From: a virus
Strand: one strand, 5' to 3'
Length of the DNA stretch: 44,646 nt
IMG/VR virus record: IMGVR_UViG_3300048930_000718
Span: 1 to 44,646 of that record
Numbering within the stretch: position 1 is the stretch's first letter; every line of letters starts with the position of its first letter. Below are positions 3,934 to 13,312 of this stretch, piece by piece. A model generated the notes under the pieces. It did no database searches. It was given only the letters and a program-made list of their open reading frames with translations, and had not been told where the DNA came from. Made by a program: the position numbers and the translations under genes.

Positions 3934-4004
3934 CGTCAGAGGGGATCGGGAGGCGGCCACCTTCCGATCCCCGTGCACCGCACATGCAGGAATGGGGTTC
4001 GAAC

Positions 4005-6677
4005 ATGAAGGGTACGGGCATGACGATAGAGGCGCCGGACCAGTTTGCAAGCGCCTGCCAATGGGCAGACAGCTACCGTGCGCTGGGTCTGGCGGTCATT
4101 CCCGCCGCCGGCCAGGAGAAGATCCCGCTCGGCAGGTGGCGCGAGTTCCAGAACGGCATTCCGCAGGCCGTCCATGAGCGCTGGTATGGCACCGCCGGCG
4201 AGCATCGCGCCAACTACCGCATGGGGTTTTTGACCGGCGCCGCCTCGCTCGGCGATGGCTGGAAGCTGCTGGTCATCGATCTCGACGAAAAGGGCAGCAT
4301 CTCCGGCTCGGCGACATGGGACCACTGGATTGCCGAGCACGAATTCGGCTGCGATCCGCAAACCTGGCGGGCGCGCACTGGCGGCGGCGGCCAGCACATC
4401 TACTTCAGATACCCCGACCGTCTGTCGATCAGGAACACCCAGGAAACGCTGGCCGGCATCGATGTCCGCGCCGAGGGCGGTTTTGTCATCGCGCCGCCGT
4501 CGATGCACAGGAACGGCAAGCCGTACACATGGTTGTTCTCGCCCTTCGAGACCGAACTGGCCGAAGCGCCGCAATGGCTGCTGACTAAGGTTGGCGCCGT
4601 GGACGCGCTGCCGCTGGCGGGCACGCCCGGTCGTTGTTCGGCGTCGTCGCCGTCATCGCCGCCATTGGCATCAACGTCGCACACACGGCCGATAACAACG
4701 GCCGGCTATCCATCGTCATCCGCATCGCGATCGTCGCCATTGCCATCGTCGTCCCGCGCAGAGGCCACGTCGCATCGTCCGGCCGCGGCGGCGCCGGCCA
4801 CTGACGCCTGGGGCCACATCGTCGATGGCCGCGACGCCTACATGCGCGACATGATCTGGGCGGCGATCGTCGACTGGTATCGTGACTGCCCGATCCCACC
4901 GTCAGACCGCGAGAGCGAAGAGAAGCTGCTCGAGGTCTTTGCCGTCTACGAGCGCAAGGTGCGCCCGCAGGATGCCGGCAATACGCTCGACGGCGAGGGT
5001 CGTGGCCTCACCGCCTTCCGCGACAAATGGGCCTACGCCATGCGGCAGTGGGAGACGAAGATCGCGGCGGCGGCGAAGGAGGAGCCGGCCGCGGCCGAGG
5101 ATACGGCGTGGGCACGGGCATCATCTCCGGCCGATCCGTTCGCGGATGCCGACGACGATAATGTCGATAATAACGACAAGACGACAGCGCATGTCGATGA
5201 CGTCGATCCTGTCGATCTGTGGTCGAAACTGGCGCCGCCCGTGTTGCCAACCGGCTTCCTGCCGCGCCAGATCGAGGCCTTCGCCTTCGACCAGGCCGAG
5301 CAGATGGGCGCCGATCCCGGCGGCTTGGCCATGGCGGCCCTTGCTGTCTGCGCCGCCGCGATCCCCGATCGCGTCAGGATCAAGGTCAAACGACACGGTC
5401 ACTGGTACGAGAATGCCCGTCTGTGGGTTGCCCTGATCGGCTCGCCCAGCGCCAAGAAGAGTCCGATCATCGCTCAGGCGGTGCGCCCGATCGCGCGCCT
5501 CGACGGTCGCCTGGTGCGCAAGTACTTCGCCGACAAGGCGCGCTACGACGAGATGTCGAAGGACGAGCGCAAGGATGCGGAGCGCCCGCGCCAACGTCGC
5601 CTGCGCGTCGAGGACACCACCATCGAGGCGGCGCAGGAAGTGCTGGGCGACAGCCCCGATGGGGTGCTGCTGATCCAGGACGAGCTGTCCGGCTGGTTCG
5701 GCGCCATGGACAAGTACAACAGCGGCGGCAGAGGTGCTGCCAGGGATCGCGCCTTCTGGTTGCAATCCTTCAATGGCGGCCAATATGCCGTCAATCGCGT
5801 CGGTCGCGGTGTCTCGCTGATCGAGAACCTGTCGGTCTCGATGCTGGGCGGCATCCAGCCCGAGGCGATCGCGGCGGTGGCGAAGGAGAGCGTCGATGAC
5901 GGCCTGTTGCAGCGCCTGCTGCCGGTCGTCCTGCAGCGCGCCTCCGTCGGTCAGGATGCGCCGGTCTCCAGCACCGCCGAACGTTACGAGGCGCTGGTCG
6001 AGCAGCTCACCGCCATCAGCATCTCCGGCACCGCCTCGTTCGGCAGCAGTCGTGACGATGACGAGTGTCTGACGCTCTACTTCTGCGACGAGGCGCTCGC
6101 CATTCGCGAGGAGCTGGAAGCCAAGCACCTCGCGCTGATGGATATCGAGGGACTGAACCGCAAGCTGGCCTCGCATATCGGCAAATATGACGGCATCTTC
6201 GCCCGGCTCTGCATCGTCTGGCACTGCATCCTCAACATCAATCGCGGCGTCATTCCGCCCGAGGTGCCGGCCGAGACCGCTGCACGCGTCGGGGCGTTCC
6301 TGCACGAGTTCGTGCTCAAACATGCCGCCGCCTTCTTCGCCGGCACGTTAGGCCTGACCGATGATCTCGACGAGATGCAGGGCATTGCCAGCTACATCCT
6401 GACTGCCCGGCTCAAGGTTGTCACCATGCGCAGCTGTCAACGCGGCGTGCGGGCTGCGCGCGCGCTCGATCGATGGCAATTCCAACGCCGGATGGAGCGG
6501 TTCGAGAGCCTCGGCTGGGTCGCGCAGGCCGAGCCGCCGAAGAATTCCAATGCTCCCAGATGGGCGGTCAATCCGCGTGTCCATGAGCTGTTCGAGCAGC
6601 GCGCCGCCAGCGAAGCGCAGCGCAAGGCGCAGGTGCGCGAGATCATCACCACCCTTGGACTGGAGGAAAAATCTTGA
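4005..6677 (+). CDS. Bifunctional prim-pol primase and DUF3987 helicase-like replication protein
   Basis: About 890 aa. The N-terminal ~190 residues form an archaeo-eukaryotic primase (prim-pol) domain: LVIDLDEKG carries the catalytic D-x-D (92-94) and GGGGQHIYF carries the conserved His (131), followed by GIDVRAEGGFVIAPPS. A Ser/Pro-rich linker (about 205-270) follows. The C-terminal half matches DUF3987, with a P-loop-like GSPSAKKSP (479-487) and an acidic LLIQDELSGW (near 559). It should prime and unwind phage DNA. ATG 4005 is preferred for its purine-rich leader; ATG 3984 or 4020 are alternatives. It sits immediately upstream of an iteron-like locus. Confidence 0.85.
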   Translation: MKGTGMTIEAPDQFASACQWADSYRALGLAVIPAAGQEKIPLGRWREFQNGIPQAVHERWYGTAGEHRANYRMGFLTGAASLGDGWKLLVIDLDEKGSISGSATWDHWIAEHEFGCDPQTWRARTGGGGQHIYFRYPDRLSIRNTQETLAGIDVRAEGGFVIAPPSMHRNGKPYTWLFSPFETELAEAPQWLLTKVGAVDALPLAGTPGRCSASSPSSPPLASTSHTRPITTAGYPSSSASRSSPLPSSSRAEATSHRPAAAAPATDAWGHIVDGRDAYMRDMIWAAIVDWYRDCPIPPSDRESEEKLLEVFAVYERKVRPQDAGNTLDGEGRGLTAFRDKWAYAMRQWETKIAAAAKEEPAAAEDTAWARASSPADPFADADDDNVDNNDKTTAHVDDVDPVDLWSKLAPPVLPTGFLPRQIEAFAFDQAEQMGADPGGLAMAALAVCAAAIPDRVRIKVKRHGHWYENARLWVALIGSPSAKKSPIIAQAVRPIARLDGRLVRKYFADKARYDEMSKDERKDAERPRQRRLRVEDTTIEAAQEVLGDSPDGVLLIQDELSGWFGAMDKYNSGGRGAARDRAFWLQSFNGGQYAVNRVGRGVSLIENLSVSMLGGIQPEAIAAVAKESVDDGLLQRLLPVVLQRASVGQDAPVSSTAERYEALVEQLTAISISGTASFGSSRDDDECLTLYFCDEALAIREELEAKHLALMDIEGLNRKLASHIGKYDGIFARLCIVWHCILNINRGVIPPEVPAETAARVGAFLHEFVLKHAAAFFAGTLGLTDDLDEMQGIASYILTARLKVVTMRSCQRGVRAARALDRWQFQRRMERFESLGWVAQAEPPKNSNAPRWAVNPRVHELFEQRAASEAQRKAQVREIITTLGLEEKS

Positions 6678-6961
6678 CCGTTTCACAGCCCCTTGAAGCA
6701 GCTGCCGCGTCGCCCGGCGGCGCCATTCGGTCGAAAATCAGCCGTGGCAAGGTTGTCACCACTTGTCGACAGCTTGCTGGCGATTTCGGATTTGTCACCA
6801 CTTGTCGACGCCAAAAACGCCAGTTTGTCACCACCTGTCGCTTGGCATGTGAGTACATATTAGATTCTTCTCTCTCCCCCTATTCGCCAGTTTCCATTCG
6901 CTTCACATGCCAAGCGACAAGTGGTGACAAGCCCGGACATGGTATCGGGAGGTCGCGATGA
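6674..6961 (+). CDS. Doubtful small ORF (TTG start) lying over the repeat locus
   Basis: A 95-codon frame starts at TTG 6674, overlapping the primase stop as TTGA, with GGAGG at 6662-6666 seven bases before it. It ends at 6961, overlapping the next ATG as ATGA. These junctions look like real coupling. The product, however, is largely dictated by the DNA repeats (VTTCR appears three times) and resembles no known protein. It may be a leader read through the repeat region rather than a functional protein. Confidence 0.3.
   Translation: MTVSQPLEAAAASPGGAIRSKISRGKVVTTCRQLAGDFGFVTTCRRQKRQFVTTCRLACEYILDSSLSPYSPVSIRFTCQATSGDKPGHGIGRSR
6753..6840 (+). repeat. Three direct iteron-like repeats
   Basis: TTGTCACCACTTGTCGAC occurs at 6753-6770 and again at 6792-6809 with no mismatch. 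A third copy, TTGTCACCACCTGTCG, lies at 6825-6840. Start-to-start spacings are 39 and 33 bases. The unit is longer than chance would give and lies right after the primase-helicase gene. Binding sites for an origin-binding protein or a repressor are the likely meaning; the protein is unknown. Confidence 0.8.
6825..6930. repeat. 28-base inverted repeat around an AT-richer loop; candidate replication origin or operator
   Basis: Arm 6825-6852 and arm 6903-6930 are reverse complements over 28 bases with a single mismatch. Each arm contains one iteron unit plus an extension (CTTGGCATGTGA). The 50-base interval between them is AT-richer and pyrimidine-rich than its surroundings (GTACATATTAGATTC near 6853). 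Iterons flanking an easily melted stretch beside a replicative primase gene are typical of phage origins. A repressor or regulator site is the alternative. Confidence 0.65.
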
Positions 6962-7257
6962 CCATTCGCCGCCTTGGGAAACGCGAAACCGAACTCGGCA
7001 TGCATGACCATTGGCGGCTGTCGAGCTTTACCTGGGCAGGGCGGACAGCGAAGGGCTGGTACAGCTTCAAGCTGTACGACGCCCGTCATGGTCGATTCCG
7101 AAGGGAGGCGTTCTGGCTTTGGTATGACGGCCACCGTTTCACCAAGACCCACCCCATGCCGTTCCTGAAGGAGCGCTATCCCGAAATCTGCGACTGGGCC
7201 CAAAGGCTGATCGTCGACCACGTCGCCGGCAATCGGGAGAACGATCATGGCCTATGA
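6958..7257 (+). CDS. Hypothetical protein, 99 aa, aromatic-rich
   Basis: Starts at ATG 6958 behind GGGAGG (6947-6952). It is rich in Trp, Tyr and Phe (for example FWLWYDGHRF near residue 52), suggesting a small compact domain. It overlaps the next gene by 11 bases. No family is recognised. Good ribosome binding site and codon use support it as a gene of the early operon. Confidence 0.65.
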   Translation: MTIRRLGKRETELGMHDHWRLSSFTWAGRTAKGWYSFKLYDARHGRFRREAFWLWYDGHRFTKTHPMPFLKERYPEICDWAQRLIVDHVAGNRENDHGL

Positions 7258-7810
7258 CTTCGACACCGCCAGGGTCGCGACCAAGCCGAAATCCGAGATC
7301 GTCGTCGACATGATGGCAGCGCTGCACAGGCTCGATGCGCTCGCCCGCGACATGGAACGCAAATGGGGCGCGTGCCGGCTGCCGGCGCTGGTATCCGACG
7401 ATCTGTCAAAACGGTTCTACGCGCAGCACCGCAAGGTCTCGATGGCGCTGCGCGAGGGCCGCGACCAGGACGCGCTCCACGAGATCGCTCGCATGGTCAC
7501 GGCATGGCGCTTCCTCGATCGCGAGGCCGAGCGGATAGGTGCCATGCCGATCCATCCCGAGGTCTGGGAGGTCGCACTCAGCGACGGCACCGTGGTGGCG
7601 ATCGTGCGTGACGAGGACAGCGCCGCCGCCGTCGATCCCGCCGACCGCGCCATGAAGGTTTTCATGCTGTCGGAAATCGCCCGCCTGATCGAGGCCATGC
7701 CGACGATCATGGCGATCAAGGCGCAATGGCCCGGCGCCAAGGTGGTGCCGGCCCGCACCATCACCGCCGACAACTACTGGTGGGAGAACGGCGATGATTT
7801 GCCGTTTTGA
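7247..7810 (+). CDS. Hypothetical early protein, 187 aa
   Basis: Starts at ATG 7247, inside the end of the preceding gene. The protein is mostly helical to residue ~105, with a short beta-like segment (EVALSDGTVVAIVRDED) near 108-124 and an acidic C-terminus. No family is recognised. It is expressed with the early operon. The 141 bases that follow contain no supported gene, only the ribosome binding site of the RuvC-like gene. Confidence 0.6.
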   Translation: MAYDFDTARVATKPKSEIVVDMMAALHRLDALARDMERKWGACRLPALVSDDLSKRFYAQHRKVSMALREGRDQDALHEIARMVTAWRFLDREAERIGAMPIHPEVWEVALSDGTVVAIVRDEDSAAAVDPADRAMKVFMLSEIARLIEAMPTIMAIKAQWPGAKVVPARTITADNYWWENGDDLPF

Positions 7811-11568: not shown

Positions 11569-11866
11569 AGAAAGAAGCCCTCCCATTGTGCTATCCAAAC
11601 GGCAACGTCCGCAGAGGCGTGCTGGGTGGCCCTATGGCGACGCCAGTTTATTCACCAGCGTGCCTCATATGATGCATGCTGTGGTTGTGCATCGTTGCTG
11701 CAGGTGCGAACGCGACTATGCAAAACTCCGCAGAACCGCGCTTCCCCCCGCCACGGGACCCCTTCTGACACAACCAGAAGGTGCGGGGAGGCGCCACGGC
11801 CGGATTTCAGCGTTTTTGCAGTTTCGATTTTTCCACTTTCGTTTCGTTTGGGGGACGAATAGCTCA
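11569..11866. other. 298-base stretch without a supported gene
   Basis: The methyltransferase frame stays open here up to 11588, but its composition and missing homology to the family favour a later start. The stretch holds a 7-base-pair hairpin (CCTTCTG at 11761-11767 with CAGAAGG at 11775-11781) and a T-rich segment from about 11810 to 11850 that could contain the methyltransferase promoter. No RNA gene is recognised. Confidence 0.5.
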
Positions 11867-13312
11867 ATGATATCAAAGGATGCAGTGCAGCGAACGGAAA
11901 ATGCACCACTTCCGCAGATCCGTCTCGCAGCCATCGACGATCTGGTGCCCAACCCGGCCAATGCCAGGACGCACCCCGAGACGCAGGTGGCGCAGATCGC
12001 CGCCTCGATCCGCGAGTTCGGCTTTACCAATCCGATCCTGGTGGACAGGGACGCCGGCGGCGTCATCGTCGCCGGGCATGGCCGCCGGCTGGCGCTGATG
12101 CGGATGCTGGAAGCTGGCGAGACGATCCGGCTGCCCGATGGCCGGGTCCTGCCAGATGGCATGGTGCCGGTCATTGATTGTGCCGGTTGGTCGGAAGCGC
12201 AGCGACGCGCCTACACCCTGGCCGACAACGCGCTGGCGGAATCCTCCGCATGGGACGAGGCGCTGCTCAATGTCGAGCTGAAGTTCCTCGACGAGGCCGG
12301 CTTCGACCTGCCGCTGATCGGCTTCTCGGATGCCGACCTCGACCGGCTGCTGGCGCATGTTCCGGATGCCGATGGCGAGGATGGCGGCTCATCGGCGCCG
12401 ATCACCATTCCTGAGCCGCCGCGCAATCCGGCCTCGCGCACGGGCGACCTGTGGCGCCTTGGCGACCATCGGCTCCTGTGCGGTGACGCTACCTCCCATG
12501 ACGATGTCCGCCGGCTGATGAACGGCGAGCGGGCGATCCTGTTCGCCACCGACCCGCCCTATCTGGTCGATTACGACGGCACCAATCATCCGACGCAGAA
12601 TAAAGATTGGTCGCCGTCCTACGGCGTGACCTGGGACGACTCCTCGCAGGGCGCCGAACTCTACGACAAGTTCATCGCCGCAGCCGTCGCCGAGGCGATC
12701 GAGCCAACCGCCGCCTGGTATTGCTGGCACGCCTCACGCCGCCAGGCGATGCTGGAGGAATGCTGGGAGAAAGCCGGCGCCTTCGTGCATCAGCAGATCA
12801 TCTGGGTGAAGGATCGCGGCGTGCTGACCCGCTCGTGCTATCTGTGGAAGCACGAGCCCTGCCTGATGGGCTGGGTGCGGCCCAACAAGCCGCCGATCTT
12901 CGGCGATCTGGAACCTACCACCTGGCTGCTGCCGGGCTATGGTCGTGACGAGCGCCCGGATCATCCGACGCCGAAGCCGCTCGAGGTCTTCGGCATTCCG
13001 ATGCGCCGGCATGTGGCGCGCGGCGGTCTCTGTTACGAGCCGTTCTGCGGCTCCGGCTCGCAGATCATGGCCGGCGAAGAGAATGGCCGGCGCGTCAACG
13101 CCATGGAGATCAGCCCGGCCTATGTTGATGTCGCCATCGAACGCTGGCAGGCATCGACCGGCAGGAACGCCATCCTTGATGACGATGGCCAGACATTCGC
13201 ACAGGTGAAGGCAGAGCGGCTTGGTAATCAGCCGGCAGAAACTCTCGACAAACCAGCCGAGGACCCGAGCAAAGAGCAAGCTCCGCTGCGCCGGAAGCGC
13301 AAGGCCGCCTGA
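11867..13312 (+). CDS. ParB-like N-terminal domain fused to a beta-class DNA methyltransferase
   Basis: 481 aa from ATG 11867. Residues ~15-125 are a ParB/Srx-like domain (LVPNPANARTHP, then AGHGRRLAL at 69-77). From about 190 follows an amino-methyltransferase: TDPPY (228-232) is the catalytic motif and FCGSGS (393-398) the AdoMet loop. This order (catalytic motif first) marks the beta class of N6-adenine or N4-cytosine enzymes. Phages use these to modify their DNA against restriction or to alter regulation. The recognition sequence cannot be predicted. It converges on the small gene at 13336. Confidence 0.85.
   Translation: MISKDAVQRTENAPLPQIRLAAIDDLVPNPANARTHPETQVAQIAASIREFGFTNPILVDRDAGGVIVAGHGRRLALMRMLEAGETIRLPDGRVLPDGMVPVIDCAGWSEAQRRAYTLADNALAESSAWDEALLNVELKFLDEAGFDLPLIGFSDADLDRLLAHVPDADGEDGGSSAPITIPEPPRNPASRTGDLWRLGDHRLLCGDATSHDDVRRLMNGERAILFATDPPYLVDYDGTNHPTQNKDWSPSYGVTWDDSSQGAELYDKFIAAAVAEAIEPTAAWYCWHASRRQAMLEECWEKAGAFVHQQIIWVKDRGVLTRSCYLWKHEPCLMGWVRPNKPPIFGDLEPTTWLLPGYGRDERPDHPTPKPLEVFGIPMRRHVARGGLCYEPFCGSGSQIMAGEENGRRVNAMEISPAYVDVAIERWQASTGRNAILDDDGQTFAQVKAERLGNQPAETLDKPAEDPSKEQAPLRRKRKAA

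Follow-up and report, generated by a model that had tools for sequence, protein, structure and literature searches.

Organization of the repeat locus and its upstream gene

The stretch of DNA analysed here, hereafter the window, is a 44,646-base IMG/VR virus record with terminase, portal, protease, major head, tail and tape-measure genes. On its plus strand, the gene at 3984-6677 encodes an 897-aa replication protein that combines a Prim-Pol primase-polymerase domain (residues 30-198, Pfam PF09250, E 8e-27), a DUF3987 ATPase/helicase (best stretch residues 528-781, PF13148, E 1e-50) and, in the predicted structure, a C-terminal winged helix (about residues 795-897). The PF13148 match scores 177.6 bits against a gathering score of 27, all of the 40 aligned relatives match the same family at E 0.01 or better, and the PHROG assignment of the product is DNA helicase/primase. 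No record covering 80% of the protein was found in the phage reference collection, and a sequence search of solved structures gave no credible match.

For the helicase part, DUF3987 is the only Pfam assignment. An AlphaFold2 model of the C-terminal 495 aa, built from the alignment of 40 relatives (pLDDT 89.5), is AAA+-like, and its closest PDB folds are MCM helicases (E about 1e-4), with low TM-scores of about 0.35. The last 112 aa, modelled separately, form a winged helix (pLDDT 93) with MarR-like PDB matches (best E 4e-3). As modelled, an AAA+ domain nearest to MCM and joined to a C-terminal winged helix is the fold expected of an origin helicase.

An earlier note, made from the letters alone, had described three direct copies and one inverted copy of a repeat unit following this gene, and all four are present. 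Copies of TTGTCACCACTTGTCG lie on the plus strand at 6753-6768, 6792-6807 and 6825-6840 (the last with one mismatch, C for T) and on the minus strand at 6915-6930. At up to three mismatches these are the only matches in the window, compared with a chance expectation of 0.24 (mean of 100 dinucleotide shuffles, maximum 2). The copies at 6825 and 6915 form the outer parts of two facing arms, which lie 50 nt apart and, as the note had it, match over 28 bases with one mismatch. The left arm (6825-6852, plus strand), TTGTCACCACCTGTCGCTTGGCATGTGA, consists of two TGTC half-sites followed by GCTTGgca; the right arm (6903-6930) reads TTGTCACCACTTGTCGCTTGGCATGTGA on the minus strand, and the inner part of the window arm is GCTTGGCATGTGA. 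This inverted repeat gives a score of 25 in the 300 bp 3′ of the Prim-Pol/DUF3987 gene; 100 shuffles reach 11 at most, and 290 other window stretches of that length no more than 12.

The spacer between the arms (6853-6902) is indeed AT-richer than its surroundings, at 56% AT compared with 36% for the window, and contains a 21-nt near-continuous pyrimidine run on the plus strand, making it a candidate melting site. The claim that the locus directly follows the primase-helicase gene holds within limits: the gene ends at 6677, the first repeat begins 75 bp on and the inverted repeat 147 bp on. Similar binding-type units, an AT-rich stretch and an adjoining initiator-type gene are features of an iteron-type (theta) origin, and the locus has all of them.

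DnaA boxes beside iterons are common but not universal and hence not decisive; we found no TTWTNCACA match at up to one mismatch between 5.2 and 9.4 kb. GC skew, proposed in the earlier note as a check, is uninformative in the window, where it does not point at the repeat locus. The open reading frame at 6674-6961 (95 aa, TTG start), which spans both repeats and arms, was dismissed as a chance frame; the aligned region is shortened and rearranged in two relatives (L019 and L020). An RNA element was likewise rejected: the sole Rfam match, to a plant microRNA model, scores 25.8 bits where the cut-off is 90 and reflects hairpin shape rather than membership.

Elsewhere in the window, a sigma-70 region 4 protein encoded at 37-759, at the start of the early region, could direct phage gene transcription. 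The gene at 11588-13312, which starts in the most AT-rich kilobase of the window, encodes a 574-aa protein with a ParB-like nuclease domain and an N6/N4 DNA methylase, and a 771-aa protein encoded at 27839-30154 matches, along its entire length, a phage family of unknown function.

Facing arms are conserved 3′ of DUF3987 helicase genes

Relatives were collected by searches with the protein and with an alignment of its DUF3987/winged-helix part, and came from viral contigs and named Alphaproteobacteria (Chelativorans, Pararhizobium, Mesorhizobium, Bradyrhizobium, Sphingopyxis, Sphingobium, Paracoccus and others). Removal of near-duplicates left 43 loci, and a plasmid (L099) and a locus found by its motif (L101) brought the set to 45. 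One further contig, the 11,261-base L018 (IMGVR_UViG_3300048587_000287), is 99.97% identical to the window across the primase-origin region.

Combining alignment with a wider search, we found an arm pair of like layout and different letters 3′ of the DUF3987 helicase in 42 of the 45 nonredundant relatives (41 of 44 without the motif-found locus), which supports the origin reading offered in the earlier note; that reading thus withstands the refuting check which the note proposed for related phages. Arms could be aligned in 39 of the 42, and in the remaining three (L029, L034 and L041) it is found 0.65-1 kb beyond the gene. No such repeat was found in L061, L087 or L097, the first of which offers only about 1.2 kb after the gene. 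An automatic arm search gave a score of at least 12 within 300 bp 3′ of the gene at 30 of 43 loci, compared with 27 of 3107 control stretches of 300 bp taken from the relatives' loci themselves; at a score of at least 14, the corresponding figures were 22/43 and 8/3107. This search overlooked some loci or placed their arms wrongly. In L032, L035, L057, L062, L069, L077, L079, L083, L086 and L093 the arms were placed manually from the sequence, which leaves 30/43 as the unbiased figure.

Two facing arms of the form TGTC-N5/6-TGTC-[CG]CTTGCGCG recur at these loci, with the consensus TGTC-N5/6-TGTC-[CG]-CTTG-CGCGCG from the outside inwards. Spacer length ranges from 43 to 105 nt (33 loci measured). 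Spacers have a mean AT content of 58% compared with 40% for the loci, the spacer being the higher in 33/33, and their longest pyrimidine run is 14.8 on the gene strand compared with 9.6 on the other. The number of extra direct repeats differs: there are two in the window (at 6753 and 6792, the latter with one counterpart in L019/L008), one in L019, three in L020 (with a different half-site) and none in L027. Across relatives, the extra direct copies are thus the variable part and the two facing arms the conserved part; as far as sequence comparison goes, the conserved feature is layout, not letters.

The repeat unit itself did not hold up as a conserved marker. Only 2 of 13 exact matches to the 16-mer in viral contigs lie near a DUF3987 gene, and one of these is essentially the window's phage again. 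The other 11 are single copies without such a gene, and exact matches elsewhere are mostly chance.

The arm pair follows the DUF3987/winged-helix module

The earlier note had tied the repeats to prim-pol/DUF3987 genes, an association that stands for the DUF3987/winged-helix half of the protein and fails for the Prim-Pol half. Some relatives have only the Prim-Pol half in common with the window protein (L021-L023, L025, L030, L033, L036 and L037), the closest of them being 66-70% identical there. These encode another type of helicase (AAA_25 in the six scanned), and no such arm pair lies within 700 bp. The pair is kept in L040, L043, L044, L051 and L062, whose DUF3987 proteins have no Prim-Pol match. 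Similarly, the gene that follows the locus in the window, at 6958-7257, is absent from L019 and L020, yet the arms are common to all three. Because Prim-Pol-only relatives lack the pair, DUF3987 proteins without Prim-Pol keep it and the following gene differs, the pair belongs to the DUF3987/winged-helix module, which it follows almost without exception, rather than to the primase.

The exchange of halves is visible in the proteins. In L021-L026, L030, L033, L036 and L037 there is a sharp module swap at about residue 410-426 of the window protein: a Prim-Pol half up to 70% identical to the window protein is followed by another helicase instead of DUF3987.

We also scanned all viral contigs in the reverse direction, from motif to gene, with the pattern CTTGCGCG-N46..76-CGCGCAAG[CG]GAC. 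Among seven matches, three have arms that continue beyond the pattern, and all three lie directly 3′ of a DUF3987 gene; one of them, L101, is new relative to the protein searches. The other four have neither extended arms nor a DUF3987 gene.

An arm pair on a plasmid

RHOAph (L099) is a 10,690-bp plasmid of Rhodovastum atsumiense, one of eight plasmids in a hybrid short/long-read assembly (PMC9938234). Its one recognised replication protein belongs to the DUF3987 family and shares 34% identity with the window protein. A perfect 24-nt inverted repeat, TGTCGACATTGTCGCTTGCGCGCG, with a 63-nt spacer, starts at the base after the stop codon of the DUF3987 gene. Since every replicon must contain an origin, this repeat is the best single argument for the function of the candidate origin. 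The GC-skew minimum of RHOAph lies about 640 bp from the repeat, with a non-significant amplitude (P 0.12); with skew uninformative in the window as well, we discarded it as proof of an origin.

RHOAph also codes for a protease/major capsid fusion gene and ParA, and may be a phage-plasmid or satellite. A second plasmid, pDSM110093_d of Sulfitobacter (L098), has a single arm-like sequence after its DUF3987 gene (11936-11960), together with a separate RepA replicon and a separate PriCT-2 gene; the arm-like sequence is perhaps a decaying second origin.

Arms vary in concert with each other and with the winged helix

Across loci, the left and right arms change together. At the position that follows the second TGTC, they carry the same base at 39/39 loci, with all four letters occurring and an expected agreement of 0.36. 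Agreement reaches 95-100% at several half-site and box positions, is 51% at the base before the second TGTC and is low at some spacer positions.

In L035, L045 and L050 the half-sites have changed together from TGTC to TGCT, and their winged helices read QSS where the TGTC relatives L031 and L062 read QRS. More generally, arm distance correlates with distance in the winged-helix helix-2 motif when the ATPase is controlled for (partial Mantel r 0.31, P 0.0005). The partial Mantel test for the ATPase given the winged helix is also significant; the winged-helix signal is thus shared with the rest of the protein, and co-inheritance explains part of it. Furthermore, because the QRS/QSS motif sits in helix 2 of the modelled winged helix and not in the classic recognition helix 3, we do not call it a contact surface.

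As a protein that might bind the repeats, the earlier note had put forward the product of the open reading frame at 1035, which is similar to a family of DNA methyltransferases. The C-terminal winged helix of the helicase itself is the better candidate.

A candidate origin of replication

Together, these findings suggest that the locus is a phage replication origin whose initiator is the product of the gene directly upstream, a reading to which we assign a probability of roughly 0.82. Both the origin activity and binding by the winged helix are inferred from sequence. We weighed this reading against three others. The repeats could instead form an operator set, bound by a repressor or by an autoregulating replication protein that controls the early genes that follow. 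Intergenic direct and inverted repeats are typical of operators, and the modelled winged helix is MarR-repressor-like in shape. The pair, however, tracks the upstream DUF3987 module and not the downstream gene, as the shared arms and missing 6958-7257 counterpart of L019 and L020 illustrate, and in L029, L034 and L041 it lies well away from the helicase gene. Moreover, a scan covering the sigma-70 type alone found no such promoter in 6600-7300, and an operator would not need an AT-rich spacer of 43-105 nt between facing sites. An operator therefore seems improbable and weaker than an origin, with which binding that also regulates genes would be compatible.

We consider it about equally improbable that the locus is an origin of a structural kind, in which the arms would act as a cruciform or hairpin, as proposed for the Sulfolobus plasmid pRN1, rather than as two duplex binding sites. 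The 28-nt arms and 50-nt spacer do resemble the pRN1 stem-loop, with its 21-nt stem and 58-nt loop (PMC4234260), and agreement between left and right arms cannot by itself separate a cruciform from duplex binding. However, the arms often mismatch where the sequence is variable but seldom do so at several of the half-site positions, and further direct copies of the arm unit lie outside any hairpin; this combination has the look of protein sites. Long inverted repeats also occur at attachment sites, cos/pac sites, transposon ends and rho-independent terminators, and the pair could in principle be such a recombination, packaging or terminator element, or the remnant of an insertion. This is very improbable: the two terminator-like matches in 6600-7300 are on the minus strand and outside the inverted repeat, the spacer contains no gene, and phage contigs, chromosomal contigs and a plasmid all carry the same pair in association with the helicase.

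If the locus is an origin, the C-terminal winged helices of several Prim-Pol/DUF3987 protomers would bind the arm half-sites, and the extra direct repeats would contribute affinity or copy control. Through the mirror-image arms, two AAA+ helicase assemblies would come to sit head to head on the spacer, and the spacer would melt; the Prim-Pol domain would then lay the first primers, and two forks would leave in opposite directions. Head-to-head loading and bidirectionality are guesses from the symmetry of the arms. More speculatively, and with considerable doubt on our part, these loci may represent one widespread undescribed class of origin, in which DUF3987 proteins are MCM-like AAA+ initiator-helicases whose own winged helix recognises two mirror-image sites. 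Such proteins would load themselves as a head-to-head pair of rings, filling the role of ORC/Cdc6/Cdt1 unaided, and their arm specificity would have been repeatedly re-tuned against cross-replication of related phages and plasmids.

For a helicase family whose label is still 'unknown function', and which occurs in phages, at chromosomal loci of Alphaproteobacteria and on at least one plasmid, the locus provides a candidate origin and a candidate binding code. Origins in DUF3987 elements would become callable from sequence, and the natural pairs of half-sites (TGTC in L031/L062, TGCT in L035/L045/L050) make recognition directly testable. A module of one gene and one origin could also seed replicons for alphaproteobacterial hosts.

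Comparison with known replication systems

Replication proteins of the PrimPol-PV1 supergroup that carry DUF3987 are among the closest known systems. For DUF3987, a helicase role in mobile elements was predicted by Kazlauskas et al. (2018), as was origin recognition by the C-terminal winged helix (PMC5862659); we found no origin sequence described in that paper and no mention of iterons or stem-loops, and the present locus supplies a candidate. In the open-access literature we found no paper joining DUF3987 with iterons. Within that literature, the earlier note's statement that no described origin has this unit stands; it does not extend to the general layout, which has been described for PICIs (PMC6092414).

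In PICIs, the origin lies immediately 3′ of the initiator gene and has two sets of iterons, between which an AT-rich region is thought to melt; plasmid replication is driven by the gene together with its origin, and the layout was stated to be known in no other bacterial replicon (PMC6092414). The window resembles this PICI/SaPI pri-rep-ori arrangement in having an origin-type locus 3′ of the rep gene and iterons that flank an AT-rich stretch. In contrast to PICIs, its arms are compound mirror images with an inner [CG]CTTGCGCG box, a pyrimidine tract is present, and the protein is a DUF3987 protein, of a kind often fused to Prim-Pol. With its terminase, portal, protease, major head and tail genes, the window is also a full phage and not a PICI member.

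The pRN1 stem-loop, which starts 54 bp after its gene (PMC4234260), is similar: it too is a long inverted repeat that follows a gene for Prim-Pol, helicase and winged helix. The pRN1 helicase belongs to SF3; for the window protein Pfam gives DUF3987 only, and the model is AAA+-like, nearest to MCM at a low TM-score. In pRN1 the search for iterons found none, nor were any accepted as the origin of Bordetella phage BIP-1; the authors prefer a structural stem-loop, its binding motifs not yet identified (PMC4234260); here, by contrast, iterons are present as repeated half-sites in each arm and as extra direct repeats. An origin of the pRN1 type has also been proposed for the Bordetella phages BIP-1/BPP-1 (PMC4234260). 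In BPP-1 (L107) we found 23-nt arms at 1087-1184, 78% complementary and 52 nt apart, that overlap the end of the primase gene, and GCGCGC in one of them recalls the inner box of window-type arms.

The alpha protein of P4 primes, unwinds and binds origin repeats through a winged helix as a single protein (PMC4234260), a combination of functions that we infer for the window protein as well. The P4 primase is of the bacterial Toprim type, in contrast to the Prim-Pol domain found here, and the helicase families differ. By analogy with these systems, the locus is best read as working like the origins of PICIs, P4 and pRN1.
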